Source: Pelecanus crispus
Lineage: Eukaryota > Chordata > Aves > Pelecaniformes > Pelecanidae
Direction: 5' to 3'
NCBI RefSeq assembly: GCF_030463565.1
Contig: NC_134655.1
Location: forward strand, 7,576,372-7,640,371
DNA: 64,000 nucleotides
Shown piece by piece: positions 12,696 to 53,100 of this stretch (the first letter of the stretch is position 1; the number at the start of each line of letters is the position of its first letter). The position numbers and the translations under genes are program-made. The notes under the pieces were generated by a model. It was not told the origin of the DNA and ran no database searches. It was given only the letters and a program-made list of their open reading frames with translations.

Positions 12696-12756
12696 ATGGA
12701 GCCGCGCCGCTCCTCCCCGCCGCTCCTCCTGCTGCTGCTGCTCCTCGGCGCCTCCG
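12696..12756 (+). CDS. LAMP2: LAMP2 exon 1 (signal peptide)
   Basis: Starts MEPRRSSPP followed by eight leucines and GAS, a classic signal peptide. The GTGAGC donor follows position 12756 and the intron is phase 1. Intron 1 (12757-13772) starts in the CpG island and holds no other recognised feature besides the E-box. Confidence 0.93.
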
Positions 12757-15700
12757 GTGAGCGGGGCGGCGGCCGTACCTGGGCCCGCGGGTGGGCGCCG
12801 GGCCTGCGGGCGGGGCTGCGGCGGCGGGGGGGAAGGGGGGGGAGGCAGGTGACCCCGCGGGCGCGTGCCGCCCCGCCGCGCACGTGACGCGGGCGTCGGG
12901 CAACGGTTGGGCGCGCGCGGGGGCGCCGCGGGCCTCGCGGCTCTGGGGTTCGGCTCAGCCCGGCGGCGGCGGCGGCGGCTTCCCCGGGGCGGCCCCGGCC
13001 CTCCCCCGCCGCGCTGGCCCGGCGGGGCCTTCCCGGTGCCGCCGCCGGGCTGGTGCGGGGAGCGCGGGGCCGGCCCGGGGCGCCAGCCGGGCGGCGGAGG
13101 CGGGTTTCACCCGCGGGGCTGTCGGCCCGGGCAGGCTGCCCCGGCGGGGCGGCGCTTCCAGGCCCTTGGGTACCTGCGCCTGCGGGCCTTGAGGGCCCGC
13201 CCGCCTCGGCGCGGCCCGCCCGGAGCTGGGGGGGGGCAGCGGGCGCAGCAACGCGAGTCCAGGCTGCGGGGGAGGGCCTCTGTGGGGCCCCGGCGTTACA
13301 GACCCAGCCGCTATTAAAGGTTCTCTAAAAACGGAAAGGGGGTTTAACATTCGTGTCTTGAGGCAGAAATTGTGGAAACAGAACGAAGGCACCCGATCGC
13401 ACCTCTCGGAGGTCAGCTTGAGTCATTCCGCTGATGAAACATAAGAGGAAGACCCTAGCCTACGAGCAGGACGTGCAGTGCTGTGTCCATGTGCTGCAGT
13501 CCACTCGGTTTCTCACCAGAAAGCTAATGCTCATTTTTGCCAGGTCAATAGACTAGAAAACATTCTGTCATTCTTATCTAGCTTTGATAACTTCACGGTG
13601 TGCTTCCTAGTTTTAATACTTCTTAGAAACCTAGCTACTCTTTCAGTGTCTGCCAAATGGAATCCAGTCCTGAAATAATTTACTACTTTGTCATGAGCTG
13701 TTCTCTTAAGTGATTCTGCAAAAATGAAGTAAAAGCCATGTCTTAACAGGTAATAATCTTCCTATCTTACAGGTTTTTTCCAGTCCTATGCAGTGGAAGT
13801 AGATGTAAAGGATGCCTCTAATGCTACATGCCTGTATGCAAAATGGATGATGAGATTCTTGATAAAATATGAAACAAACAGTAGTGATTATGTAAGTATT
13901 TGGAGGTAACTTTTGCTGAGAGCTGTATTTTGTCCTGGGTAAATGTTTAAGCACATTCTTTTACCCAGGGTGTTTGGTGCTTTACTTTTTTTTTTTTTCC
14001 CCCTCCACTAAGTCAGTTGTTGAGACTATTCCTAAATATTCATTTTAAAACAAAGCATAAGTTCTCAATTAATAATACAAATAACTGAAAGTGCACTGTT
14101 ACACTTACTTAAATGGCATACTGGTCAAACTTGGTGGCTTCTGTGTATCAGTGTAGTAATGTTCTTAGCCCAAATAGTAAATGCAGATTGCAGCTCAGCA
14201 TGATCAACATTTACAGCCAAGTTAGATTTGTACTTTTGTACTTGAAGCTGATATGGCTCCTTTCTAAGTCAGATGTCAGGGAGCCTTTTTCATATTTTTG
14301 TAGAATAACCTAAAATAATCTTGCTAACCTTGCGCAAGGTTCTGTCTCACTCCGGCAGTTTATAATATTTTCATGGGGAAGAACTGCTATCTGTGAAAAC
14401 ATTTAAAATTACCCTTTTCTTCTAGAAAAATGCAACCTTGAATTTGTCATCTGGGGTGACACACAATGGAAGTGTCTGTGGCAATGACACCCAAGCTGCG
14501 CTTCTGGCAGTACAGTTTGGAGAAGGTCACTCTTGGAGCATCAACTTTACAAAAACCAATGAAACTTACCAGGGGGAATTCATCACATTTACCTACAACA
14601 CCAATGATACTGCTGTATTTCCTGATGCTAAAAGAAAAGGTAATGTTCAGTGCAGAATCCTACTTACAAAACAGTCTCGGCCACAAGTATCAGGTCTCAT
14701 GTACCTGACCTTGGTTGGCTTTTTCAAAGTTAGAAGGACTAATAATGTATCTAATGACTTCTGTGCCATATACTGCCTAGCTGTTGTTCATCATACTTGC
14801 CTACTGGATAAGAATACAGACTAGTTCGCTTCACTGAATGTATAATTCCTTTAAGTGGTGCAGAAGGGGAAGGGTGGCTGTTTGAACAGCCTTGATCAGA
14901 GAGGTGCTGCTACTATAGCATATGGAAGATTCACTTTAGTGTGTGCTACTTGACCTTCCACCTAGCAAAGCAATATAGTGTTAGGCTTTCTGTGTACTAA
15001 TACCTACTAATAATAGGATTTATTTGTTCTTGAATAAAAACGTAAGTAAAAGGGTTCACCTTTCTAATGGCTTGTCTAATTCTCTGGAAGCTTGGTCACT
15101 TCTCTGCATTACTTAGCACTTCAGGTCAGAACTCATAGGTGAAACATTCAAGAGAGCTTAGGATTGTTAATTAACTCTTACTCTTTGTCTTATGGAATGA
15201 TATAAAACATAACACTACCTATAAATGTTCTTGTAGTTCATAAAGCATTAAAATATTTGTGCTTATTTGTAGGACCGATTACTATTTTTGTAAAGGATAC
15301 TATGCATCCAGTTCAACTGAATAATGTCTTCGTGTGTCATAATACTGACTTTCTTGAAGCAGAAAACGTAACACAGATTTTCTGGAATGTTACTGTGCAG
15401 CCTTTTGTTCAGAATGGCACAATCAGTAAAAAAGGTGAGCATTTCAATTTGCAAGCGAGCTTTTTTGTATTGCACCTTAGTGCAGGGAGCAAAGTCCAAT
15501 AATAAAAAAATACATCAGTTCTAAGATGTGTTGAATAATATTCTTGTAAATATCCCTTAGTATGTCTTTCCTTGTTCCTGGAAAAATGGGTTAGCAGAAC
15601 AGATTTAGTAGTATATAGTAATGTAGATTGTTCCCATGCCAAGGTGGTAGTCAATAAAGTGTGTATTCCAGTAATTGGGGTATTAAAAATAAGCACTTCA

Positions 15701-18700
15701 GAACTACTGTTGTTGACTAGATCATTTGAGCTTCAAGTTTTTTAACTGACTGCCTTCCATGTTCAGTGGTAGCCTCTGCTTTTTCATGTAAATAGTCCAG
15801 AGCTTGTTGTCTCATCTCATAGCTCAGCTACTCAAGAGATGAGCACATCATCCTGCTACGTATGCCTTAATAGGGTAGCACTCTGTCTACAGCAAATACA
15901 TCACACTTTTATAACCACTTAGCTGACTTTGTCTGTGTGTTTTGCTTCTGTGTGTTGGGGGTAAGTAGTCCTGCATATGCTATGTGGATTTAAAACTGTG
16001 GGTGTTACAGAATTTCTGAGAATAAATGGTAGCTGTAAATTGTTTGGAATACTGTGGTGTTGTACTGAGTTTGAGACTTCTGACTTGGTGATTAGCAGAT
16101 TCCCAATGAGCCTAGATTTCAACAGAGAAATTGGTATCTGTATTGAACTGACCTCTGAGTCTTAAGACTTTAATAAAATTTTAGCACTGAAATGGTGGTT
16201 AAAATTTCTTTTCAGAGTCTAGATGTCGTGCTGATATGCCTACTTCTGCACCTACTGTTCCGCCTACTATTGCCAATGTAACTACTGCACCTACCACCAC
16301 TTTATCGCCTGCTCCAACCACTGCTCCCAAACCTGTGGAGAACCCAGACACAGGAAACTATTCTCTTAAAAGTGGAAATACAACTTGTCTTCTGGCTACT
16401 GTGGGGCTGCAGCTGAATGTTTCCCAAGACAAGGTGCTTCTCTTCTATTTTGGAAGAGTAGAAAGGTTGCCGTAGTTATTTGGTATGAAATGCGAGTGCA
16501 GGGTATTTGCTTTGTACACTGCTGGCTGTCCAGAACTGCTTCTGAGTATTGTATATAGCACCTCTCTGACATCAGAATAGTTTTGTGGCATAATGTCTAG
16601 CTTCAAAACCTTATGGGGATTCAAGGTAACTTGTTACTGGGAGTACTTCTAACATCATTAAAAGCCTGGAACTTTCTTAAGCTTTTAGGGCTGTTGGTCC
16701 CTGCAGATGCCATCTTTCCCCACAGAGGGAGCCAAAGCTAACCTGTTGCATTAGGTCCACAAAATAAGACTTCACTGGCCAATTTGTTTGCTTCAGTATT
16801 ACCAGCGTGTGAACTGATCTTGGGGTAGCCTTGCTTTGATAGTAGCCAGACTCAATCTTCTTGCTGTCATCTTCATGACAAGCTCTTCTAGCCTAAGACT
16901 GCTACCGACTGAAATGGTGTATTCCTAATGGCAGCTGAATGTCTTTGACATGGTATGTCTGTATTTCAGCCTCATCTGATCAATGTCAACCCAAAGACAA
17001 CTACTGCAGATGGCGCGTGTGGTAACACAACAGCTACTCTGAAATTGAATGATGGAAATAGCACATTGATTGGTTTCACATTTGTTGTTGTAAGTAACTT
17101 CTTTTATTTTAAACTAAGTTTCTGCTTTAACAGCATTGCATGATGATTGCTCATAGTAAAATCCCGTCGCTTGCTGGTGGTAGGCTGTTCCCATATAGGA
17201 AATGGAACTGGCTAGCGGACTGCCTCAAGGCAAATGGAGAATTGGGCTAAGGTTGTAGAAAATGTAAGAGTGTGGTAAATGTGTTAGCCTTTGCAAAGCA
17301 TGTGTTGTTAAAAATGCAGAACTGCACACTGACAGTTGGTTCTTGTTTCTCAAACAGAAAAATACAAGTGCAAGCGTACAGAAATTTTATCTGAAAGAGG
17401 TGAATGTTACACTGCTCAACCATCTGAATGGTTCTGGTAAGAAATAGTATCTGCCTTAAAGCAAGTGTAAGCTTTTATTCAGTGTTTGTATTTATCAAAT
17501 ACTTCTGACTTTTTTTTTTTTCCAAGTGCTGTGCATGCTTACTGTTACTTGCTACTTAAAGATTTAAGTTGGTAGGAACAAAAGTAATAAGCAGAAATGG
17601 TTATAGCAGTTCCTTTAAACAGCACTGTGGGATCATTCTCTTTTCCTGAAATTTCTGCTAATGGGATCTCTTACTTTGTGATAGACATACATAAATATAT
17701 ATATAGACATACAGTGCAGCAGGATGGCTATGACATAGTCGCCATCACGGAAACGTGGTGGGACGACTCTCATGACTGGAGTGCTGCACTGGAGGGCTAT
17801 AAGCTCTTCAGAAGGGATAGGCAGGGAAGGGAAGGCGGTGGGGTGGCTCTGTATGTTAGGGAGTGTTTCGACTGCATAGAGCTTGACAGTGGTGATGACA
17901 AGGTGGCATGCTTATGGGTAAGGATGAGGGGGAAGGCCGGAAAGGCGGATGTCCTGTTGGGAGTCTGCTATAGACCACCCAACCAGGATGTAGAGGTAGA
18001 TGAGGCATTCTATAAACGGCTGGCAGAAGTCCCACAATCGCTAGCCCTTGTTCTTGTGGGAGACTTCAACTTGCCGGACATCTGCTGGAAATACCACACA
18101 GCAGAGAGGCAGCAGTCTTGGAAGTTCCTAGAGTATGTGGCGGACAACTTTCTAATGCAGCTGGTAAGCGAGCCTACCAGGGGAGGTGCCCCGCTTGACC
18201 TGCTGTTTACCAACAGAGAAGGGCTTGTGGGAAATGTCGAGGTCGGAGGCCGTCTTGGGCTTAGCGACCACGACATGATAAAGTTCTCAATTTTGAGTGA
18301 TGCTAAGCGGAGGGGCAGCAAAACTATTACCATGGACTTCCGGAGGGCAGACTTTGGCTTCTTCAGGACCCTGGTTGGGAAAGTCCCTTGGGAGGAGGTC
18401 CTGAAGGGCAAAGGGGTCCAGGAAGGCTGGGCCCTCTTCAAGAAGGAAGTCTTAAGGGCGCAGGAGCGGGCTGTCCCCGTGTGTCGTAAGACCAACCGGC
18501 GGGGAAATCGACCGGCCTGGCTGAATAGGGAGCTTTTGCGGGGACTCAGGGAAAAAAGGAGAGTCTACCACCTTTGGCAGAAGGGGCGGGCAACTCAGGA
18601 GGAGTACAGGGATCTTGTTAGGTCCTGCAGGGAGGAAATTAGAAAAGCAAAAGCCCAGCTAGAACTCAATCCTGGCCAGTGCTGTAAAAGACAATAAAAA

Positions 18701-21700
18701 ATGCTTTTATAAGTACATCAGCAATAAAAGGAGAGCCAAGGAGGATCTCCATTCTTTGCTGGATGTGGGGGGGAACATTGTCACCGAGGACAAGGAAAAG
18801 GCTGAGGTACTTAACGCCTTCTTTGCCTCTGTGTTCAACAGCCAGACCGGTCATCCCCAGTGTACTCAGGCCCCTGAGTTAGAGGATAGGGATGGGGACC
18901 AGAATGGAGCCCACATAGTCCAGGAGGAAGCAGTTAATGACCTGCTACGCCACCTGGATGCTCACAAGTCTATGGGGCCGGATGGGATCCACCCGAGAGT
19001 ACTGAGGGAGCTGGCGGAGGAGCTCGCCAAGCCACTCTCTATCATCTATCAGCAGTCCTGGTTAACAGGGGAGGTCCCTGATGACTGGAGGCTTGCCAAT
19101 GTGACGCCCATCTACAAGAAGGGCCGGAAGGAGGACCCGGGGAACTACAGGCCTGTCAGCCTGACCTCGGTGCCAGGGAAGATTATGGAGAGGTTCATAT
19201 TGAGCGAACTCCACAGGCAAGTACAGGTCAACCAGGGGATCAGACCCAGCCAGCATGGGTTCACGAAAGGCAGGTCCTGCTTGACCAACCTGATCTCCTT
19301 CTGTGACCTGGTGACCCGCCTGGTAGATGATGGAAAGGCTGTGGATGTCATCTACCTGGACTTTAGCAAAGCTTTTGACACCGTCTCGCATAATATCCTC
19401 CTCGGGAAGCGGGCAGCTCACGGCTTGGACAGGCATACTCTTCGCTGGGTAAAGAACTGGTTGGGTGGCCGAGCCCAGAGAGTTGTGGTAAATGGTGTTA
19501 AGTCCAGTTGGCAGCCGGTCACGAGCGGTGTTCCCCAGGGCTCTGTTTTGGGGCCAGTCTTGTTCAATATCTTTATCAATGATCTGGATGAGGGGATCGA
19601 GTGTGCCCTCAGTAAGTTTGCAGATGACACCAAATTGGGTGGGAGTGTCGATCTGCTCGAGGGTGGGATGGCCCCGCAGAGGGACCTGGACAGGCTGGAT
19701 CGATGGGCCGTGGCCAACTGTATGAGGTTCAACAAGGCCAAGTGCCGGGTCCTGCACTTGGGTCACAACAACCCCATGCAACGCTACAGGCTTGGGGAGG
19801 AGTGGCTGGAAAGCTGCCTGGCCGAAAAGGATCTGGGGGTGTTGGTAGATAGCCGGCTGAACATGAGCCAGCAGTGTGCCCCGGTGGCCAAGAAGGCCAA
19901 CAGCATCCTGGCTTGTATCAGGAATGGTGTGGCCAGCAGGAGCAGGGAGGTGATTGTCCCCCTGTACTCGGCGCTGGTGAGGCCGCACCTCGAATACTGT
20001 GTCCAGTTTTGGGCCCCTCACTACAAGAAGGACATTGAGGTGCTGGAGCGTGTTCAGAGACGGGCAACAAGGCTGGTGAAGGGTCTGGAGAACAAGTCTT
20101 ATGAGGAGCGGCTGAGGGAACTGGGGTTGTTTAGCCTGGAGAAGAGGAGGCTGAGGGGAGACCTTATCGCTCTCTACAACTACCTGAAAGGAGGGTGCAG
20201 TGAGGTGGGTGCTGGTCTCTTCTCCCAAGTAGCTAGCGATAGGACGAGAGGAAATGGGCTCAAGCTGCGCCAGGGGAGGTTTAGGTTGGAAATTAGGAAA
20301 AATTTCTTTACGGAAAGGGTGGTCAAGCATTGGAACAGGCTGCCCAGAGAGGTGGTGGAGTCACCATCCCTGGAAGTGTTCAAAAAACGGGTAGATGTGG
20401 CACTTTGGGACATGGTTTAGTCCAGTCTACCCTTGATTGGTTTAGGTGGGCTTGGTAGTGTAGATTAATGGTTGGACTGGATCTTAAAGGTCTTTTCCAA
20501 CCTAGACGATTCTATGATTCTATGAAATCAAGAGGGCTTCCTTGCAGCTGTATTCAGTAACATAAATTTTTTGAGGTGTGAAATACTGTTGTACCAACTC
20601 TGAAGCTTTTTGTTTTTCCTAAACCAGCTGTTGTTGTCTTTGATTGAAGATGCTGCTGTATCTTCCAACCACTTCTACTTTAAATCCCACTGGAAAAAGA
20701 GACCAGTCCTTTAAAAACTAAAGCGTACTTTTTTCCAAATCAAAAGTTATGGGGTTTTGTGGTTTTGGGTTTGTTTTTTTTTTTTTTAAAGCTGCTTGTC
20801 ACAGCTACTGCAGTTAAAAGGGCACTAAAGCTAAAATGCTTGCAACTCTGCAGTCTTGGGATAAGCAGAGGTACAAGGAAAGCCTAATCTTATGTCTGTC
20901 TACTGTTAAGTACTGTAATAATTTCAGTGCCTAACTTCTGGTTAAGCAGATCAATTGCACTTCAGACTACCTTGTTTTTCAGAGTAGTCAGTGTTGAAAA
21001 GCTGGCCCCTTTAGATTCAACTCCTTAGTCTTATGATTGTATTAGTAACTCTCTTGCATTTAAAGTGAGTATGCAAATTTCCTTTTTTTTACCCCCCTTT
21101 GTTTAGTAATTTCAAATGCAGATAACAGCAATTTCAGCGAGTGGGATGCTTTCCTTGGTAGTTCTTACATGTGCCGAAAAGAGCAAACTCTTAAGATTAA
21201 TGAAGATCTTCAAGTACATACCTTTAATCTATGGATTCAGCCATTCCTTGTGAAGGCAAATAAGTTCTCTACAGGTAAGAGTTCTTTTCTTTGTTAATTC
21301 TTACTTCTTAAAAAGCCACAGCGTTGTGCACAGGTGCTTTATTTTTGAAGCTCTTGTTCCATTGGGTTTGGTTTTTTGGGTTTTTTTTGGTTGGGTTTTT
21401 TTTTTTTGAATGAAGGGAAGTTCTGAGACTGACACTCAAGTTCAAGGAAAGTTTGTTCTCACTTAAAGTGTCTGCTAGGTATGTTGGTTCTCCTTCATAA
21501 AACTTGAAGGAGCTAGAGACACTGAAGAGGATTGCCTTGCAATTAAGCATTGCCTTGCAGAGTAGGTTAAAAGTTACCTGACATCATCTTGCCATACAGT
21601 TTTTTGTAGCTCGAATATATAAGAAAATGGGACAAAACTTTAGCAGAAGTGGACTTTGGTAATGCTGTTAGGTGGTTTGTTTCTTTTTACCTGACAGTCT

Positions 21701-24700
21701 AATTCCTTAGGAGTGTTGGGAGAAAAAACGAACTGACTGAGCTTCTTTCAGAAGCCGCCTTGAATATCCAGAAATATAGAAAGATTCTAAAAATGTTTGT
21801 TTGCTGCATTATCCTGGTTTTGTATGGGGAAAACTGGAATGGCTTATATGACCTCTTTCTTAATCTTTAGTGTAACCTGGTCCTTGTACTTAAGACTGTG
21901 CTGCAAGTATTATAATTATTAGACTAGACTAATCTGTAAACAAATAGACTGGGTGCAGATTTTTGAACTTTTTTTAGGCAGAGGTAAGTCAGCTCTTATG
22001 TGGGGTAAACAGTATTTGTCATAATATGTTCTAAAGAGTTAGGGTCCCTTTTGACTTTGTAGTTCAAGTTGCAGCTAGTTTCCTCCTTCTCCTAATTACA
22101 GTTATTTCATCTCTATGTAACATGTTCATTTTGGATAGGTTCTTGATACCAAGTCTAGGTCACTTTATTCTTAATGAGTAAAGGCACCAGACTTGCCTTA
22201 AGTATGAAATAGATAAGCCTTGTTCTGTCTTAAAAGTAGAAGAATGGCTGCTCCCTTGTCTAGTACAGATCTTGTACACATGAAAACCCCTACCCCAGGG
22301 GCACTTCTGTTACCTTACTATAGTTTATCAAAGGTTCCAAGTGATTATAATGCTTAATATATGCTAGATGTACCCATGAGACCTCTGCAGTTCTTTTTCT
22401 CTTAGTTTAAAGATGTAATAATACTTGATTTTTTTTAAGACCTTCATATTAAGGAAAACAGATTTTTATACCACACTTGGCAAGTGTTCTGTCTGTATTT
22501 ATTCCTTGTTGCAACCTTTTTCTCATCTACAGCCCAGGAGTGTTCGCTGGATGATGACAGCATTCTAATCCCAATTGTAGTTGGTGCTGCACTTGCTGGC
22601 TTGATTGCCATTATAGTGGTTGCTTACATAATTGGCAGAAGAAAAAGCTATGCTGGATATCAAACTTTGTGAATCTAAATGTGATTCCTGTTCTGATTTC
22701 ACTCAAAGCAAGTGCAAGTTCTGAAGTCCAAAAATGACCCAAAACTTAGGAGTAATTACTAGCCACAGCTAATTGGAGTTGAGAAACAGAGAGAATGTTT
22801 ATCTCAGATGAAGCAGAACTACGTTTTTTAGTTTTCCTGCTCTAAGAAGACATCATGGGTTTCATAGCTGTTTTGAAGATGTCAAATATTGGATGAATTA
22901 CTAGGCTAAGGATTTTATCTTTCAAAAACCCTGAAGTGTTTAGGATTTATTTATGCTTTTTTTATGAACTGTAGCCTGAAACAAGAACACATTCTAAACT
23001 GATGTGCATTGGGCAACTCCCAGAATAGCATAGAATTTGTACTTGCTTCTCTCCTCTGCGTTCCTTAGTTGTTGTCATAATTGTGGGTTAAGCTGGCAGC
23101 ATTAAGTCACTCTGACTCATACAGTATTTAACATGGATTGTACGATGCCCAGTAACAACTTTGTTTTTCATAGAATTGAACTTGGTGGCGATTAAGTGAT
23201 CTTTTGAAGTGGCAGCAGTAACTTACTTAGCTTTGACAGAATTTGAGTGGTTTACTCCTGCCTTGGTGTAGTTTCAGGAATCATTCCTATACCCTGGCTA
23301 TACAAACAAAATGGGTAACCTATACTTGCCAAATGGTGGACATATAGGAAGACTTCAGTGCTGTTTCCAAATACTTTCAAAAAAAAAAAAGAAATTACTG
23401 TTAGGCACTGAATTTTTCATCACTTATTATACCTTGGCAATCATCTAAAATACTCAGCTGAGGCAGAGTTCTACTAAATTAATGCAAGCTTTTTGCTGGC
23501 ATCAGTTCAAAGGGAATAACCTTTCTAAATATTCCAGAACTTTAAAGTGCACTTAACTTTATATCATCCTCTGCACAGAACTGGTCTGTCTTGTTGCTTT
23601 GAATGACCATTGTTTAAAGATGCTTTCATTTAATGAGCCAGTATCTGTTGTTGCAGCTTGAGCTGTCTTTAAATCTTCATCTTGAATGGTTCTCTGCCAA
23701 TCAAAATTCACACTATAACTGCCCGCCATTGGCATTCTGAATGTTTAATGTACTTTGTGTTTGATTGTTTACTGTGTAGCATTTATTACTGTTAAGAATG
23801 CAAAAGCCAAACAGGTCTGAGATGGACCCACAACACCTGTTTTTCCTTGCTGTATGGAAAGGATAACTAGCTTAAAAAATGCAATGCAACTGGACTGTTC
23901 TTAAACTGCAGCTCTGTAGAGACTAACCCTTGCTGTACAACTTTCCTCTGGCCTCCTTGTGCTGTAATACATAGTTTTTACCGCATGGAAAAAAAAAGTC
24001 TTTTAGACTTTTAGATAAGTGTGGCTTTTTTGCATATGTCATAACATGAGCTGCCTAAACTAGTTATTTAATGAACATAATGTTGTCTCCCCCTTTAGAA
24101 TGAGTTTAGCCTGCATCAAAGTTGGTTTAGTGTTTTATTAGTGTTTTCTAGGGTTGTAGAGATGTCTGTGGCATGTTTGTACACAAATCATAAAACACAC
24201 TTCTTTCGGTAATTTCTTTTTTTGTAAAAGCAGTTTACTCCTGACACTAGCCAAGGAGGCAAGTATGGGTGGATAATGCTTACTATAGCTTGTAGTCTAC
24301 AGCTTGAATTTTGTATCAGTTACTGAAATTCATTTTAATGAAAGTGGGGGAACTACTATAAGTTTAATCCTGAAACAGGCTTCAAGACTTGCCATTTTAA
24401 TTAAAAAAAAAAAGTGGATCTAATGACTTTCATATTAATATATCCTCAAATGCAGAAGTTCATATAGATTTTTTTAACAATTCTGTGACTGATGTTCAGT
24501 GGTACCAGTTATACATGCATTTCTGTTACGGAGTAGTTACCACACTGTATTCATCTGACCATGCAAATTTTCGAACTGTGCACAGTTTCCAAGTGACAAT
24601 ATAGAAGATCAGTGCAAAGTGCTCCCAAAATTCAACAATACTAGAAGGATCTTTGCAAAAACCTGCAGCTTAATCTTCATTTGCAAGTATATTGGCTCAG

Positions 24701-27700
24701 ATTAAAGTACTCCTAGACTGATGTGCAGATAACTGGTTCAAAACACATCTTAAGTTTCACCTGACTGCCTGTTATAAAACCACTAGTTTTCCTGTATGTA
24801 TTGCTCCATAGGGAACTGTCAACCTGTTCAACATGTGCTCTAAATAATAAAGATGTTCTATTTCCTAAGGAAACTTGTTCACATTTTTTAACTGATTTGA
24901 AAACAGACATCTTGTACTGTCCTGTTTTTTTTTTTTAAGAAAATAAACTAAATAAGGTCAACTTCAATCAGTCTATACCCAAGATTCTGTTACATAGCTG
25001 GTGAAGGTGCTCCTTGAAGAGTCATCTGTATCAATTGTAGCTCCATCCAGACAAGATGTTTTTATGATTGATTTTGCTAGCCATCTCAAATTGGTGTACG
25101 GGTGCAAACAGTTCAGTTTCTTCTTGCAGTCATCCTGGAAAATGAAATCAATCTCTGCATTCAGCAAAAGTGTGAAAGCATTAGGGAGCCTTCTGGGAGT
25201 TGGTTAGAAGGTAGAAGCCGTGTTGATCCTGTCTGTGCTGCCAGTTCTTCTGGTAACAGTACTGCTATATACTTTTTTCCTGCATCAACAGAGAAACTAG
25301 TCTTCCCTTTACCATACCTCTTTCTGGCCTATCTTGTGAACTCTATGGTCATATGACAAGAGGAAAAAGTGCGGTCCAATCCTATATCCTTTCTTCATGA
25401 TTCTAGCCTGCACTGCTTATATAATCATTATGTTAAAGCTGCCGCCTTACCAGCTATGCAAAGTCAAAATAATGTGAGCTCCTTTCTGAAGTGTAAGCTG
25501 AAGTCAGCCGAAGCTTTTTTAATGTGAAGAAAAACACAAATACTTTAATAGGCTCTTGTTAAAGAGCTTAACAGTGGGGTTCCTAAGGATGTAAATCAGT
25601 CAAAGTGAATTTAAACTGCAATGGGACTGCAGGCATCAAAGTTCTGTCAAATTATCAGTACAAGTCAGTCTGCAAGAGTCTATGACAAAACTTGGAACAA
25701 GCAGGAGTTACTGCTGTCCTATAGTAAGTGTAAAGACTTTTTTTTTTTTTTTGGTCAAAGCATTACTATTATTACTGTAACTCTATCTCCAGTATTGTTG
25801 TCTCTCCTGGACACTTGCAGTGAGCATTTAGACACTGGAAGACTGGACTTTGTGATGTACAGTAATGATAAATCTACAGTAATACGCAGATAGATGCTTT
25901 TCAAGAATGTATATAATGGAATTATGAGTCTGTTACGATGTTTGGGAAGGGGAACTATTGCTATTGTATTTTGGGGAGGGAAAGAAGGTCAGGGTTTTGT
26001 GGATGACTGTCTGATGTCCTTTTGGGGAAAGGCGTAAGAGTTTTAAAGAATTAGAGGGAGATTATAGTGTTAAATACTTCTATTTAAATGCATTTCTTTT
26101 TCAGACTTTCCCTTTTTCTGTTTAGCTGAAGACTGTAGCCTAGAGGTAGGCAGCTCCATTGTACCCATAGCAGTAGGAGCAGCTTTGGGAGGATTAGTTG
26201 TCCTAGTACTTCCTGGCTTACTCTGTTGGTTACAAGAAACGCTGTAATGCTGGATATGAGTAGTTTTAAAATAGGAAAGTTTAACTTTATTTAAAAAAAG
26301 AAAAATCTGAACTCAAAAGACTGCTTGCTTGCCGAGTCAAGCAAATGGTTTGTTAAAAACAAACCTGGGTAAGAAATGATGCAGAATGCATTGTCCTGCT
26401 TTGTTTGAACCTAACAACTTGGAGTATGTTCTGGTTCATAATCAAGTGAATGAATTGATTTCATGTCTTCCAAAATACTACACTTTTAATTTCAGAGTAT
26501 TAAAGCCATGCAGTGGCATTATGTGAATAAAAATAGTTTTGTTCTGGGCTGTGGAAACAGCATTTAACTTGTGTGCGCTTGTGGATGTTGAATATTAATG
26601 TGTATAATTATCATAGACTGTGGTATGTTTTGATTACTATTGGCTGTGCCTTATATAGTTTACTAAATATTAAAATTGTGCTCTAAGATAGAAGATTTCT
26701 GATCTTTGTTAGCTTAAAGATGCCATGCTAGTAGTCCTCAAAAGAAGCTTTTCCAGCCAATGAAGGCTTTTTTGTTTTAACTTTTAAATTTACCACAGTG
26801 TTCTCTATTGTATAGCATATACTAATAAAACCACAAAATTTTGGGCTATGGGTTGCATCTCATGATTAGAATTAAAAGGGAAGACAGCTTTTATATGGGG
26901 GCTAAAAATGTTGGGGGCCAAAGTTCCTGATTATTTTGAATGGAGACGCATTCAACCAAGTATGTCGAAAAAGCTATTCCTCCTGGCCTGAATGTGGAGT
27001 CTGCTTGTCATGGTGTGCAGTTGCCAGGTTCTGCATTTGAAGACACTTCTCTGAAGCTTCTGACCATTGTACAGTAATGATACAAGGATAGATGAGTGCC
27101 AACAGCAGTGGCAAACTGGAGAGAGGTAAAGGATGGAATGCTCCTGGTATGACACCTCAAACCCTTTTTATCCTGGGAATTCCTTGTAGTAGTGCTGTGG
27201 TGTGATACATATTGCAGTGATCTCCTTCCTTTAACAAAGAGAGAAGGGGAATTTCTGTCGCTGCCTGCTGGGCACCTTTCATCCTCAGCACGTTCATTCA
27301 CGTTTAGTATTAATGACCCATTATCTAGTGTGTAGTAGTTAAATTGTGCACGCTGACCTTCAGTAAACAAAGATGCCTAAACATCAAATGTGGTTCTCTT
27401 TTTAAGATGCTTAGATATTTTCTCAGTAGTCAGAAGATTTTGAAATAACTCACTGTATAAGGTACATATTTCCTTTCCTTTTTTTTTTTCCCCTTCCAAG
27501 TGTTGCTCTACTTGGCAGTCGGTGCTTTCAGATTGTCCAAGTTCAGTATTTTCAGGTGCTGAACCTCTGTGTGGTGTTTTCTTTCCTCTTAGCCAAAGGC
27601 TTTGTATAACCTGTTGTGAAGGGGACGTGGCAAATGTGTACTGGACTGTAGTGAGCTAAATCAAGACAGGAAATTTCCCATAACTAAGGCTGATTCAGTT

Positions 27701-28904
27701 AGAGGCTCAAATGGTTTAAATATTCACTTAAAACAATTAGCTAACTTTTGATAAAGTCTTGAATGTGTGCATGATACTCTGTTCTAATATAAACACAAGC
27801 AAAAAAGTTTTACAAGGAGCTCTGCTTTATTAAAAGCATGTAAGGCAAGCACCCTTGGAGCGCTGAAGCGGTACACGGGCACTGTGTCGTACCTTACTAA
27901 ACATCTCATCTTGGCTCCGCACCGGTGCGGCTCTGCTCTCTTGACAAACGGGAAGAATGCCAAGCCCTGCCTCCAGGTCTAAAGTGTATCACTGACTTTG
28001 AAATCAGTTAATCCTTGTATGAGTGTTTGTATCAACAAGGAATTCATCCCATATTTTACAACCTGTACATTAAAAACCACTGTAGCATTACAGCTGTCTT
28101 CTGGTTTTTTCTCTTATGTTGGGTAAGGTCTGCATATGTTTCAGCTGAAACTGATAACCCTTTTCTTGTATTTGGATTGAAAATAAATAAAGTTGCCCAC
28201 CCAAAGAGAGAGTCTTCCAGTGTTTTCCATTCAGTGCTTTCAGCATATGTATCTTGGCGGTCTCTTGTAGCTTCCAGGAAACTTCTACGTTGTTACTTGG
28301 TTTGCTGTCATTTCTCTTCATGTCTAGAACCTAGAGAAGTGCTGATGACTTGGTTTGGGAAGTCACTTGGACAAGGCACTAATATACCAGTCTGTCTTTT
28401 TTTGCTGCTGTATTGCTTGTTAACTCTGAGGTGTGATCAGCTAATGCATGCTCAGACTGCTGTTTTGTCCTCACATTTCTAATCTGAGTGGACTGCTCGC
28501 TAGAGGAAGGTGAAGTTAACTTCAATCGGAAGTAGTATATTACCAATACAAATGATGTGTGTAGTATATATGTTTAAAGAAATTGGTCTTTCTGTCAATT
28601 CTTTACTCAATACTGATTTTGCTTTAGATGTATTATTGCATCTAACACAGTGTAAGTTCTCAAAAATGTCTGTTTGCTCCTTGCTTTATTTGCTTTCTAC
28701 TGCTTGATTTCCTTTACTAATTTATTCTCCCTTGCTTTTTTGTTTTTTCTTCTTTCTGCAGCCGAAGAATGCTTTGCTGATTCTGACCTGAACTTTCTTA
28801 TTCCCATCGCAGTGGGCATGGCACTTGGCTTCCTTATCATTCTTGTCTTTATATCTTATGTCATTGGAAGAAGAAAAAGTCGTACTGGCTATCAGTCTGT
28901 ATAA
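12696..28904 (+). CDS. LAMP2: LAMP2, lysosome-associated membrane protein 2 (whole gene)
   Basis: Type I lysosomal membrane glycoprotein used in autophagosome-lysosome fusion and lysosomal stability. Eight shared exons encode a signal peptide (leucine run, residues about 10-17), two LAMP luminal domains with all eight disulfide cysteines (two each side of the hinge are visible per domain pair), and a Pro/Thr-rich hinge in exon 5. I count about 22 N-glycosylation sequons. The last exon is chosen from three: B (tail [12 protein letters not shown]), an A-like exon that is broken, and C (tail [12 protein letters not shown]). These tails identify LAMP2 rather than LAMP1. CDS: 12696-12756, 13773-13891, 14426-14639, 15273-15434, 16216-16433, 16970-17089, 17358-17436, 21107-21274, then 22533-22672 (B, about 426 aa) or 28762-28904 (C, about 427 aa). 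All joins keep phase. The start at 12696 has G at -3 and +4; an in-frame ATG at 12627 would add 23 residues before the signal peptide and is less likely. Confidence 0.95.
12881..12888 (+). promoter_or_regulatory. CACGTGAC E-box in LAMP2 intron 1 start
   Basis: CACGTGAC lies about 125 bp after exon 1, still inside the CpG island. It matches eight bases of the ten-base CLEAR consensus bound by TFEB-type factors, and is the better of the two candidate sites here. Confidence 0.45.
13773..13891 (+). CDS. LAMP2: LAMP2 exon 2
   Basis: Acceptor AG at 13771-13772, donor GTAAGT after 13891; phase 1 in, phase 0 out. Encodes the start of the mature luminal domain ([19 protein letters not shown]), with the first conserved cysteine and two glycosylation sequons. 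Confidence 0.95.
14426..14639 (+). CDS. LAMP2: LAMP2 exon 3
   Basis: Acceptor AG at 14424-14425, donor GTAATG after 14639; phase 0 in, phase 1 out. Encodes 71 residues of luminal domain 1 with the second conserved cysteine (SVCG) and seven N-glycosylation sequons, the densest cluster in the protein. Confidence 0.95.
15273..15434 (+). CDS. LAMP2: LAMP2 exon 4
   Basis: Acceptor AG at 15271-15272, donor GTGAGC after 15434; phase 1 at both ends. Contains the third cysteine (FVCHNTD) and the motif [11 protein letters not shown] typical of a LAMP domain end. The 580-bp intron before it and the 780-bp intron after it show nothing else recognisable. Confidence 0.95.
16216..16433 (+). CDS. LAMP2: LAMP2 exon 5 (Pro/Thr hinge)
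   Basis: Acceptor AG at 16214-16215, donor GTGCTT after 16433; phase 1 in, phase 0 out. Encodes the fourth cysteine (SRC), a Pro/Thr-rich hinge of about 35 residues that is likely O-glycosylated, then the start of luminal domain 2 ([15 protein letters not shown]). Confidence 0.95.
16970..17089 (+). CDS. LAMP2: LAMP2 exon 6
   Basis: Acceptor AG at 16968-16969, donor GTAAGT after 17089; 40 codons, phase 0 at both ends. Luminal domain 2, with cysteine in DGACGNTT. Confidence 0.95.
17358..17436 (+). CDS. LAMP2: LAMP2 exon 7
   Basis: Acceptor AG at 17356-17357, donor GTAAGA after 17436; phase 0 in, phase 1 out. Encodes [20 protein letters not shown] and six further residues, with three sequons. 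The following intron is enlarged to about 3.7 kb by the CR1 insertion. Confidence 0.94.
17711..18697 (+). pseudogene. CR1 ORF2, endonuclease part (truncated, frameshifted)
   Basis: Open frame encoding the apurinic-type endonuclease of CR1, beginning near [11 protein letters not shown]. Active-site-type motifs are present: [14 protein letters not shown] and LGLSDHDMI, the last holding the terminal SDH motif. The frame extends upstream into unrelated LAMP2 intron sequence, so the ATG at 17597 is not native. It ends at TAG/TAA-type stop 18695-18697 shortly after the reading frame is lost near 18670, where an extra base in a C pair is the likely cause. Not expected to be mobile because of the missing 5' end and the shift. 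Confidence 0.88.
18669..20420 (+). pseudogene. CR1 ORF2, reverse transcriptase part
   Basis: Long frame encoding the CR1 reverse transcriptase, shifted relative to the endonuclease frame. It shows the ordered RT motifs: [43 protein letters not shown] with a catalytic aspartate, [20 protein letters not shown], and the FADDTKLGG catalytic box. It closes at a natural stop (20418-20420) ending VALWDMV. The first ATG is at 18756, but the frame is open from the shift point. The catalytic motifs look undamaged, suggesting a fairly young copy. Confidence 0.9.
21107..21274 (+). CDS. LAMP2: LAMP2 exon 8
   Basis: Acceptor AG at 21105-21106, donor GTAAGA after 21274; phase 1 at both ends. Encodes the end of luminal domain 2 with [10 protein letters not shown] and [16 protein letters not shown], and is the last exon shared by all isoforms. 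Confidence 0.95.
22533..22672 (+). CDS. LAMP2: LAMP2 alternative last exon B
   Basis: Acceptor AG at 22531-22532, phase 1 in, stop TGA at 22670-22672. Encodes [14 protein letters not shown], with the last luminal cysteine, a transmembrane helix ([19 protein letters not shown]) and the tail [17 protein letters not shown] is the GYxx-hydrophobic lysosomal sorting signal. The tail equals that of mammalian LAMP2B, the muscle-enriched isoform. Intact. Confidence 0.95.
22673..26125 (+). other. LAMP2B 3' UTR and intron to the A-like exon
   Basis: AT-rich, no further exon seen. AATAAA at 24846-24851 and 24942-24947 are the likely polyadenylation signals for the B isoform, implying a 3' UTR of about 2.2 kb. 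Open frames in this stretch (for example 25001-25207 and 25621-25893) have no supporting features. Confidence 0.6.
26126..26269 (+). pseudogene. LAMP2: LAMP2 alternative last exon A, apparently decayed
   Basis: Located between the B and C exons, with a good acceptor (polypyrimidine tract, AG at 26124-26125) and the right phase. It begins [20 protein letters not shown], clearly homologous to the LAMP2A exon, and continues as a transmembrane helix to LVVLVL. There the frame is lost: the run CTTCCTGG at about 26209-26216 has one base too many, and the open frame ends at TAA 26245-26247 after [11 protein letters not shown]. In the other frame the expected tail is still readable ([16 protein letters not shown]), but its glutamine codon is TAG (26261-26263), followed by TTT TAA, the codons expected for F and stop of a GYEQF tail. 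So there are two independent lesions. Sequencing or assembly error could explain the first, less easily both. AATAAA signals follow at 26526-26531 and 26824-26829. Confidence 0.85.
27917..27930. repeat. 14-bp perfect palindrome in a CpG-dense islet
   Basis: CCGCACCGGTGCGG is identical to its reverse complement and sits in a roughly 120-bp CpG-containing patch (27845-27960) inside the otherwise AT-rich LAMP2 A-to-C intron. Origin unknown. Confidence 0.6.
28762..28904 (+). CDS. LAMP2: LAMP2 alternative last exon C
   Basis: Acceptor AG at 28760-28761 after a strong pyrimidine tract, phase 1 in, stop TAA at 28902-28904. Encodes [19 protein letters not shown], a transmembrane helix and the tail [12 protein letters not shown], matching LAMP2C, the isoform linked to RNA and DNA uptake by lysosomes. 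GYQSV is an intact sorting signal. AATAAA at 29469-29474 is a candidate polyadenylation signal. Confidence 0.95.
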
Positions 28905-50100: not shown

Positions 50101-53100
50101 TCCTTCCAGAGACACTGGCCAGTCAAAAAGGACGTTGCTTTTCTTTATAAACCTCTCTTGCCTTTCATGTCCTTGCATTGGGCTTTTAAGCCCCAAGTTT
50201 AGGACTTGTCTGTGGTTTCAGGCTCATCTGGTTGGTTTGTGTGAAATGATCCAGCCCTGTGCCCATGGCAGCCGTGCCAGCCCAGAGCATGGACCGGCAT
50301 GGAGAGGGAGCGCTCCTGCCAGCAGCACGGCTAGGGGGTCAGGTTGGAGTGGGTGTGGAGGAGCAGCAGGGAGCTGCTGCACTTTTCCCTGGGGAGAGCT
50401 GTCCCTGCAGAGGAAGGGAGATAATTTGTACCAGAGTGTGTCCATATGGCTGTGTTGGTGTAGCTGTTAGGGTGAAAAGATCTCTCTAGCTGCGCCGCAA
50501 ATATGCGCAGACCCTAAAGAAGGGCCTGTGGGCACATGGGGCGCACATCTTCAAGACAGAAAGCTGCCCGGCAAGGCCTGGTGTGCTTCTTTCTCTGGAG
50601 AATTTGGACAAGGAGGTTGTGCTTGGCTTGGCTGAGTCTTTCCTCCTGGCCTTTCTGCAGGGGTTTTATCTCCCCATGTATGGGCTGTCAGGGAGCCCCT
50701 GGACACCGCAGGTGGGGGTTCCCAACATGGTTTGCTTTGGGGAATACACTCAGCGATGGTGGAAGCAGCTCCTTGCTCTTGGGGCATGTCCCTGCCCTTC
50801 TCCGAAACACTCTGAGAAGTGCTGGTAGCATGCACATCACTTGGGAGCCTCTGGGGTGGGAAATACCTTTGCCTGCTCCCAGGTTGCGGGGATGGGATTC
50901 AGGGTGGCCTCAGCAGCCCAGAGGGAGCGCGGAGGGGACCATTACAGTCCGTTGTCCTACCGACCGCTCTCGCAGGTGCTGGGTTATGTCTACATAATGT
51001 ATGAAATATAATCAAAAGGATTGTTCCGCAAAGTGACGTAAAGATGGCAGACCACACGCTGAACAAACATGCCTAAAGATGTTGCTGAGCGTAATGTCAC
51101 AACCAGCTTTCCTCTTGGCTGATGGAATCACTATTTTATATTTATGCTCATTTGGGAGATCTATAAATATATAAAAGAAAAAAAAACATAATCAGGCAGC
51201 TGTAGATGAGTTTTACTAATCCACAAATTCATTATTCAAGCATCTAAAAATACCTGGTCCTTGCTGAAAGTAGAGGATGCCACTACAGGAGGAAGAGAAG
51301 TGGCTGTTACTGGTGATGTCTTGTTTACATGGAAAATGGTGGATGCCTTGTGATACGATTACAGCCAAGATCTCCCCCCTCAAGATGAGTGGCATACAGT
51401 GTGGTTATTTAGCTTGATGTAAGTAGACAGATCAGAAAATATATAAATGCCTAATGGTAATATTTCTCATTAGCTCAATTGCCCCAAGCCACAGGGGCTA
51501 GGAGGCTCCGATGTATCCAAATGAGCTTTGCAAAGTTACAGTTCTTAAGGCTCTCTTCATCTACGTCAGAGCAATGATAAGCAAATGTGAATTCAGATGC
51601 CCTGGTAATGCTTGATAAAGCACGTTATTGAAGGTGAAAAGTGACAGCCAAACCCAAAAATATTCTCAAGTTAGAAGAAAGAAAATTCACCACAATGTGG
51701 TTGGTGGTGGGAGGAGAAATTTGCGGTACCGTGATTGTCCTCAGGTGGAATCAGCAAATTCTGTTGTGTATGTGTGTTTTTAGGGTCGTTCAATAGAAGA
51801 AAAAGAAATTCCCTCTACGTAACTGTGACTCTCCTCATTGTGTCAGTATTAATTCTAACGGTGGGCCTAGCTGCTACAACAAGAACCCAAAATGTGACTG
51901 TTGGAGGTTATTACCCAGGGGTTATTGTAAGTATAGAACTCCTAGGTAGGTCTAGAAAACTTATTGCCTACAAAGTCCCTTGTAATGCTGCAAATGTTGT
52001 AAAGGGTGATCTTGTCCTGAATATTATGCTCAGCTACTTCATTGCCATTTGATTTATTTGTTTTATTATTATTTTGCACCTGCTGCTCATTCCCATGCAA
52101 AAATCCCATCCGAGTGGCAGCTTCCTCTGAGCTTAGGTAATAACATGCTTTTGAGCTAACGGTGAGACAGATAAATAGGTCTTATGTCAGTCAAAGCAAC
52201 CTTAGAACCTTTTTGTTTGCATACATCACATTAACCCCGGGCAGAAGTAAGGCAAAGAAGGACCATAGGTGCCAAGAACAGTTGAGAGACCAGGTCTTGA
52301 AATACTCATCACGTGAACTCGTGGTCATAAATTTCACTTGCAGAAGTGTTTAATTATTCAGAGTCCCTGAATGAGGCGGAGCACGGTAGCAATAGCTGTG
52401 GCAGCTTGCCAGGGGAGCATCCACATCAAAGCAGCTAGCACATCCATTTCTTCTTTTTTGTTATCAACAGATGAAAATGGGAAAGGACAATCTTGTAGCT
52501 TCAAATGGCTTAATTTAGAGAAGACCACTGGTGCCCAGCCTTCTTGCCAGTAGATGTATAACCTCCTGCAGAAGTGTAAGGGGCAAGTACATCATGTCCC
52601 TCCTGGCATGAGCAGAGGTCTAACACAAGCTGGAAAGCAAGCCCTGGTCTGTTCCTGTGCATGAGAGAGACGTGCTCAAAAAGAAGCACAAAAAGGACTG
52701 AGATGCAGCTAAATCAGGTGTCTTAGCAGGTTGAGTGTAACTGCAGCCTCCCAGCTAGAGGCTCGTGGTGTAACAGCTGTGAAGTGCTGTGCATTTAGGT
52801 TTGGAGCCTCGAAGTTGGAGGCTTAAAGCCAGTCCAGATAACTAGGTGGAGACGTGTTCTTGCCTTATTGCGGTTTGATTTATTTGCCACACGTTGCTGA
52901 TCTCAGGGAGGTTTATAATTCTCTGTGGACAAGCTCTTCTGTGACTGAAGAAAGCTCCTTTACAGCCATTAGCATGGAACACTGTTACAGACTGTGTTGG
53001 GCCTCTTGGGTTTAGGATTCGTTTTCTGGCTTGTCTCGGTAACTCCTGCATTTAGGCCTGATCTTTTTTGAAGAGAAGTATAGAAGGAGGGTGTTGAGAA

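Follow-up and report, generated by a model that had tools for sequence, protein, structure and literature searches.

LAMP2A is the lysosomal receptor thought to be essential for chaperone-mediated autophagy (CMA), and the LAMP2 locus of the pelican Pelecanus crispus raises the question of whether its tail exon A can still encode that receptor. According to the sections available of PMC9221867, LAMP2A acts in CMA and LAMP2B and LAMP2C have not been demonstrated to do so; a YxxF signal and basic juxtamembrane residues serve sorting and the binding of HSC70 and substrate, the GAALAG or GAALGG dimer motif of the membrane segment is important, and the tail exons are ordered B-A-C (figure 5 legend of the same paper).

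The window, by which we mean the whole 64-kb stretch of contig C13 that was analysed (7576372–7640371), contains one complete LAMP2 gene on the plus strand. A tblastn search with human LAMP2A located its luminal exons together with the three alternatives for the last exon, all of which are listed by window position in Table 1. The splice sites are canonical, the exon phases are mutually consistent, exons 1–8 are open and the phase at the end of exon 8 fits each of the three tail exons. Tail exons B and C are both open, as the initial annotation of this stretch had reported. The spliced B isoform is 99.8% identical to the annotated P. crispus LAMP2 (P0001) over 426 residues with zero substitutions, the sole difference being one additional residue at the exon 6/7 boundary. 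The intron between exons 7 and 8 holds a long reverse-transcriptase-like element (17597–20420) with two large open frames of 366 and 554 residues, which we take to be probably a CR1 LINE. A further open frame at 51735–52052 resembles a membrane-protein exon, presumably of TMEM255A, a usual neighbour of LAMP2.

Table 1. LAMP2 exons of P. crispus and the lesions of tail exon A, in window positions.
Feature	Positions	Strand	Basis or remark
Exon 1, coding part, signal peptide	12696..12756	+	ATG, GT donor; protein start as in P. crispus LAMP2
Exon 2	13773..13891	+	tblastn, splice sites
Exon 3	14426..14639	+	tblastn, splice sites
Exon 4	15273..15434	+	tblastn, splice sites
Exon 5, hinge	16216..16433	+	tblastn, splice sites
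Exon 6	16970..17089	+	annotated P. crispus protein implies that the donor may lie 3 bases earlier
Exon 7	17358..17436	+	tblastn, splice sites
Exon 8	21107..21274	+	start set from the P. crispus protein
Tail exon B, intact	22533..22672	+	open; GYQTL then stop
Tail exon A, probably decayed	26126..26269	+	acceptor, phase, homology; two lesions
Exon A lesion 1, frame shift	26212..26215	+	four bases against one codon in intact relatives
Exon A, first true-frame stop	26245..26247	+	TAA
Exon A lesion 2	26261..26263	+	old tail frame; TAG at the Gln position of GYEQF
Tail exon C, intact	28762..28904	+	open; GYQSV then stop

Exon A lies between exons B and C and continues the frame of exon 8 as an alternative last exon. 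Its acceptor, CTTTCCCTTTTTCTGTTTAG directly followed by CTGAAG, sets the exon start and carries pyrimidines at 16 of its first 17 bases, the highest count among ten acceptors compared; the place, phase and good acceptor described by the initial annotation were all recovered at the same coordinates. The alligator A tail is matched by tblastn with residues 1–29 at 26125–26211 (83% identical) and residues 30–47 at 26213–26266 (72% identical), and the E value of this match (9e-13) indicates that the homology to the LAMP2A tail is not due to chance. Codon 29 is CTT (26209–26211) and is followed by CCT GGC TTA; the four bases CCTG stand at the position of one residue in intact relatives and account for the extra base that had been proposed near 26209–26216. 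After this frame shift the true frame continues for 11 more residues before its TAA, giving an open length of 40 residues. The old tail frame is legible over 26213–26269 and is broken by the TAG already noted in the initial annotation, which stands where intact relatives carry Gln and is followed by F and a stop. The comparison with relatives that had been suggested covers distant ones: their intact A-tail proteins show the Gln and no extra residue, which fits an ancestrally intact exon. The pelican resembles the intact LAMP2A of galliforms, alligator and turtles in the B-A-C order, the AEDCS start, the GAALGGLV stretch and, in the old frame, NAGYE, but its frame is shifted before the end of the membrane segment, a stop stands at the Gln of GYEQF and the true frame has neither basic tail nor sorting motif. 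With an intact counterpart in relatives and disabling lesions of its own, exon A looks as expected of a unitary pseudo-exon.

Routes around the lesions were considered and rejected. Use of another splice acceptor fails on two counts, as in the old tail frame the upstream part of the exon is interrupted all along by stops, down to one just before YFLAYSV, and the TAG would still cut the motif; with read-through alone the frame shift persists. Either lesion would suffice to remove a normal tail, and one of the two may represent later decay.

The true-frame product keeps the GAALGG membrane motif and lacks both the three or four basic juxtamembrane residues and the C-terminal YxxF or GYxx-hydrophobic sorting signal. 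In the old frame GYE runs directly into the TAG, so that the sorting motif is cut. The Pfam model of the LAMP2 transmembrane segment scores 55.2 bits on tail B and 71.6 bits on tail C; on true-frame A it reaches 25.3 bits, which is below the 27-bit cut-off, and covers positions 1–17 of 32. Against the human LAMP2 structure 2mof, the same product aligns with residues 6–29 of 42 and the cytosolic tail is missing. The membrane half, the acceptor and the downstream poly(A) signals (AATAAA at 26526) are retained, as in young decay or in a retained shorter product. A product of the latter kind, still in use as a LAMP2 isoform with a membrane anchor and hardly any cytosolic tail, perhaps with a surface or regulatory function, would be in keeping with the pyrimidine-rich acceptor, the 40-residue open frame, the AATAAA and a hydrophobicity that is still high (best 19-residue mean of 2.47). 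We consider it quite improbable, as no such protein is among the matches listed from a clustered database, even with the exact tail as one query, and the relatives' tail that can be read in the other frame suggests decay and not design.

The extra base is a single base, and an error of assembly or a private variant of one bird, in a species that has a working LAMP2A, might be suspected from this. Such an origin is most improbable in view of two separate lesions accompanied by several substitutions at conserved sites, a longest base run at the site of two, a contiguous assembly (310 contigs) and the lack of any neoavian A tail among the matches listed. The conserved sites were taken from eight reference A tails (quail, guineafowl, alligator and five turtles; two geckos, Varanus and a chimeric Aix model were left out). 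Pelican exon A has the changes D9G, F11S, F33S and H36Y, each at a site that is identical in all eight, which makes a lone sequencing error unlikely. Squamates vary at F11 (Tyr in Varanus) and at H36 (Arg in Gekko and Varanus, Leu in Sphaerodactylus); D9, F33 and the lost Gln (Q46) are fixed in all 11 A tails when the three squamates are included.

Tail A was compared with tails B and C of the same gene. Differences from the nearest reference tail number ten for A (both lesions counted), three for B and one for C. The sites that are invariant in all references and broken in the pelican amount to 5/35 in A, 3/42 in B and 0/39 in C, and in a matched five-taxon set to 6/36, 3/43 and 0/44, respectively, at the protein level. 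For the matched set, A against B and C together (6/36 versus 3/87) gives a Fisher p of 0.018, with P6L among the six broken A sites being shared with alligator, which also has Leu, and one other being the stop itself. The control took in 18 of the 20 neoavian B tails and 25 of the 26 neoavian C tails, leaving out P. crispus and second copies from Athene: the B tails, which are presumed to work, have 3 to 6 of 43 sites broken and the C tails 0 to 2 of 44; the B tail of the window breaks 3 of 43. Because presumably working B tails break that many sites, the broken-site count appears to support decay weakly. The raw rate alone likewise says little, since pelican and alligator A tails differ at 10 of 47 positions (lesions counted) and quail and alligator at eight (counted by eye). 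The case for decay rests on the frame shift and the stop, together with the radical nature of the changes and where they fall.

A search of the rest of the genome for an intact A exon, whose presence the initial annotation had named as evidence against its reading, found none. In the assembly of 1,314,409,820 bases, exon A DNA has a single match, the exon itself, and an exact 34-mer likewise occurs once. Alligator LAMP2A protein matches 17 places, ten of which are on C13 at LAMP2; five are on C1, where the clearest similar tail outside LAMP2 reads GRKRSHAGYQTI, as in LAMP1, and the remaining two are weak matches, one each on C4 and C9 (E values of 0.46 and 0.68). These whole-genome DNA and protein searches, which used a loose first screen on an assembly that may have gaps, gave no second A exon, and nor did tblastn of the window with eight A tails, which returned B, A and C and a few weak matches (E values of 0.12–0.83). 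A search for bird DNA among viral contigs gave no match, and none of ten pattern matches in bacterial and archaeal genomes was a relative. From the lesions and the lack of another A exon in these searches, it follows that the assembly encodes no LAMP2A as known. The suggestion of the initial annotation that this bird may lack LAMP2A is therefore well supported for this assembly, and exon A of the only LAMP2 gene found in the pelican genome is very probably a decayed exon.

The loss of LAMP2A may predate pelicans. The best 120 of 359 matches in a protein search were inspected and 95 were classed from their C-terminal ends, the remaining 25 being partial or truncated models that stop short of a tail exon. 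Among the matches listed, Neoaves have 20 B, 26 C and no A tails and two proteins without a tail (48 proteins from 42 species), Palaeognathae have five B and two C tails and no A (0/7), the 17 Galloanserae have two A, four B and ten C tails plus the A exon of Aix in a chimeric model, and the 23 from other tetrapods, including one caecilian, have nine A, nine B and five C tails. The Aix galericulata model (P0062) runs from the A exon straight into the C exon and then off frame; it is probably a faulty gene model of a gene in which the A-exon sequence is present. Type A thus accounts for 0/46 of the listed neoavian proteins with a tail, against 3/17 in Galloanserae (one chimeric) and 9/23 in other tetrapods. 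Fisher tests on 0/48 Neoaves give p values of 0.016 against 3/17 and 3e-5 against 12/40, for species that are not independent. The absence of type A from the list is weak evidence, since it is also absent from the seven palaeognath records. With a database clustered at 90% and an identity of 94–95% between isoforms within a species, A isoforms could be hidden in clusters, although B and C from the same species are often listed separately.

With the quail A tail as query, a search brought up 13 proteins (quail, guineafowl, Aix, alligator, five named mammals and four unnamed sequences), with no neoavian A tail among them. Its silence is of limited weight because it missed five turtle and three squamate A tails known from the first list, as well as those of chicken and human. 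The missed turtle tails have 8–12 five-letter words in common with the quail region; for a pelican-like A tail this number would be 15, equal to that of the alligator tail, which was found. With the pelican tail as query, in both of its frames, the matches listed were quail, guineafowl, Aix and alligator, and no neoavian A tail was among them.

The B tail of Neoaves shows a change of its own. Three sites that are identical in five palaeognath and four Galloanserae sequences are altered in 20/20, 19/20 and 20/20 neoavian sequences (two of the 20 from Athene): T10 to Ser, Asp, Asn or Gly, V26 to Ala and I30 to Val, Leu or Ala. All three are in or adjoin the membrane segment, and two of them vary among seven of the nine other-tetrapod B tails (Tiliqua and Lerista were left out). 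From the tails compared, the pattern fits a change on the neoavian stem. Taken with decay of exon A, it might mean that LAMP2A is gone and that CMA persists through LAMP2B, an addition to the decayed-exon reading and not a competitor to it. The sauropsid form of LAMP2B has a GAALAG motif, three basic residues (RRK) and GYQTL, and its membrane segment is the one altered in Neoaves; we nevertheless regard such a substitution as unlikely, as the B-tail changes may be neutral and a role of LAMP2B in CMA is described as not demonstrated (PMC9221867).

Decay of exon A has partial parallels. In European eel and Asian bonytongue the second LAMP2 paralogue has, like the pelican gene, kept B and C and lost A, but both fishes keep another LAMP2 with exon A, whereas the only LAMP2 found in the pelican has lost it (PMC9221867). 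KEAP1 and other genes are reported as lost in Neoaves (PMC7234996, PMC10722388), which is likewise a loss in modern birds, although there the whole gene is gone and in the pelican one alternative exon is lost and leaves a readable relic. The KEAP1 loss is not universal, as full-length KEAP1 occurs in kakapo and New Caledonian crow (PMC10722388). One paper reports that Keap1 is degraded as a substrate of CMA and that Nrf2 regulates or drives LAMP2A (PMC9197408); a link between the LAMP2A and KEAP1 losses is speculation, and the word LAMP2 is absent from the main texts of PMC7234996 and PMC10722388. We tentatively put forward, as possible, that Neoaves lost LAMP2A on or close to their stem, together with remodelling of the LAMP2B membrane segment and perhaps the loss of KEAP1; most living birds would then be without the textbook CMA receptor and the pelican exon would be its readable relic. 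No report of LAMP2A loss in a bird was found among the titles and starts of abstracts listed from the open-licence literature.

Since the acceptor looks sound, splicing from exon 8 to exon A as a last exon may still take place. The product would then end after the hydrophobic stretch, without basic residues or a GYxx-hydrophobic signal, and would be unable to bind HSC70–substrate complexes or to be sorted to lysosomes by the known route; judged by sequence, the function of LAMP2A is lost. The pelican keeps LAMP2B and LAMP2C, and KFERQ proteins would have to go by endosomal microautophagy, by macroautophagy or by a stand-in such as LAMP2B. We infer from the lesions that the pelican would have no LAMP2A protein and no LAMP2A-dependent CMA; on the strength of the receptor literature, classical CMA, or all CMA-like uptake, may be absent as well. 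A bird that lacks LAMP2A would serve as a natural knockout of this receptor, in which it could be asked whether LAMP2A is dispensable for lysosomal uptake of the KFERQ type and what replaces it.
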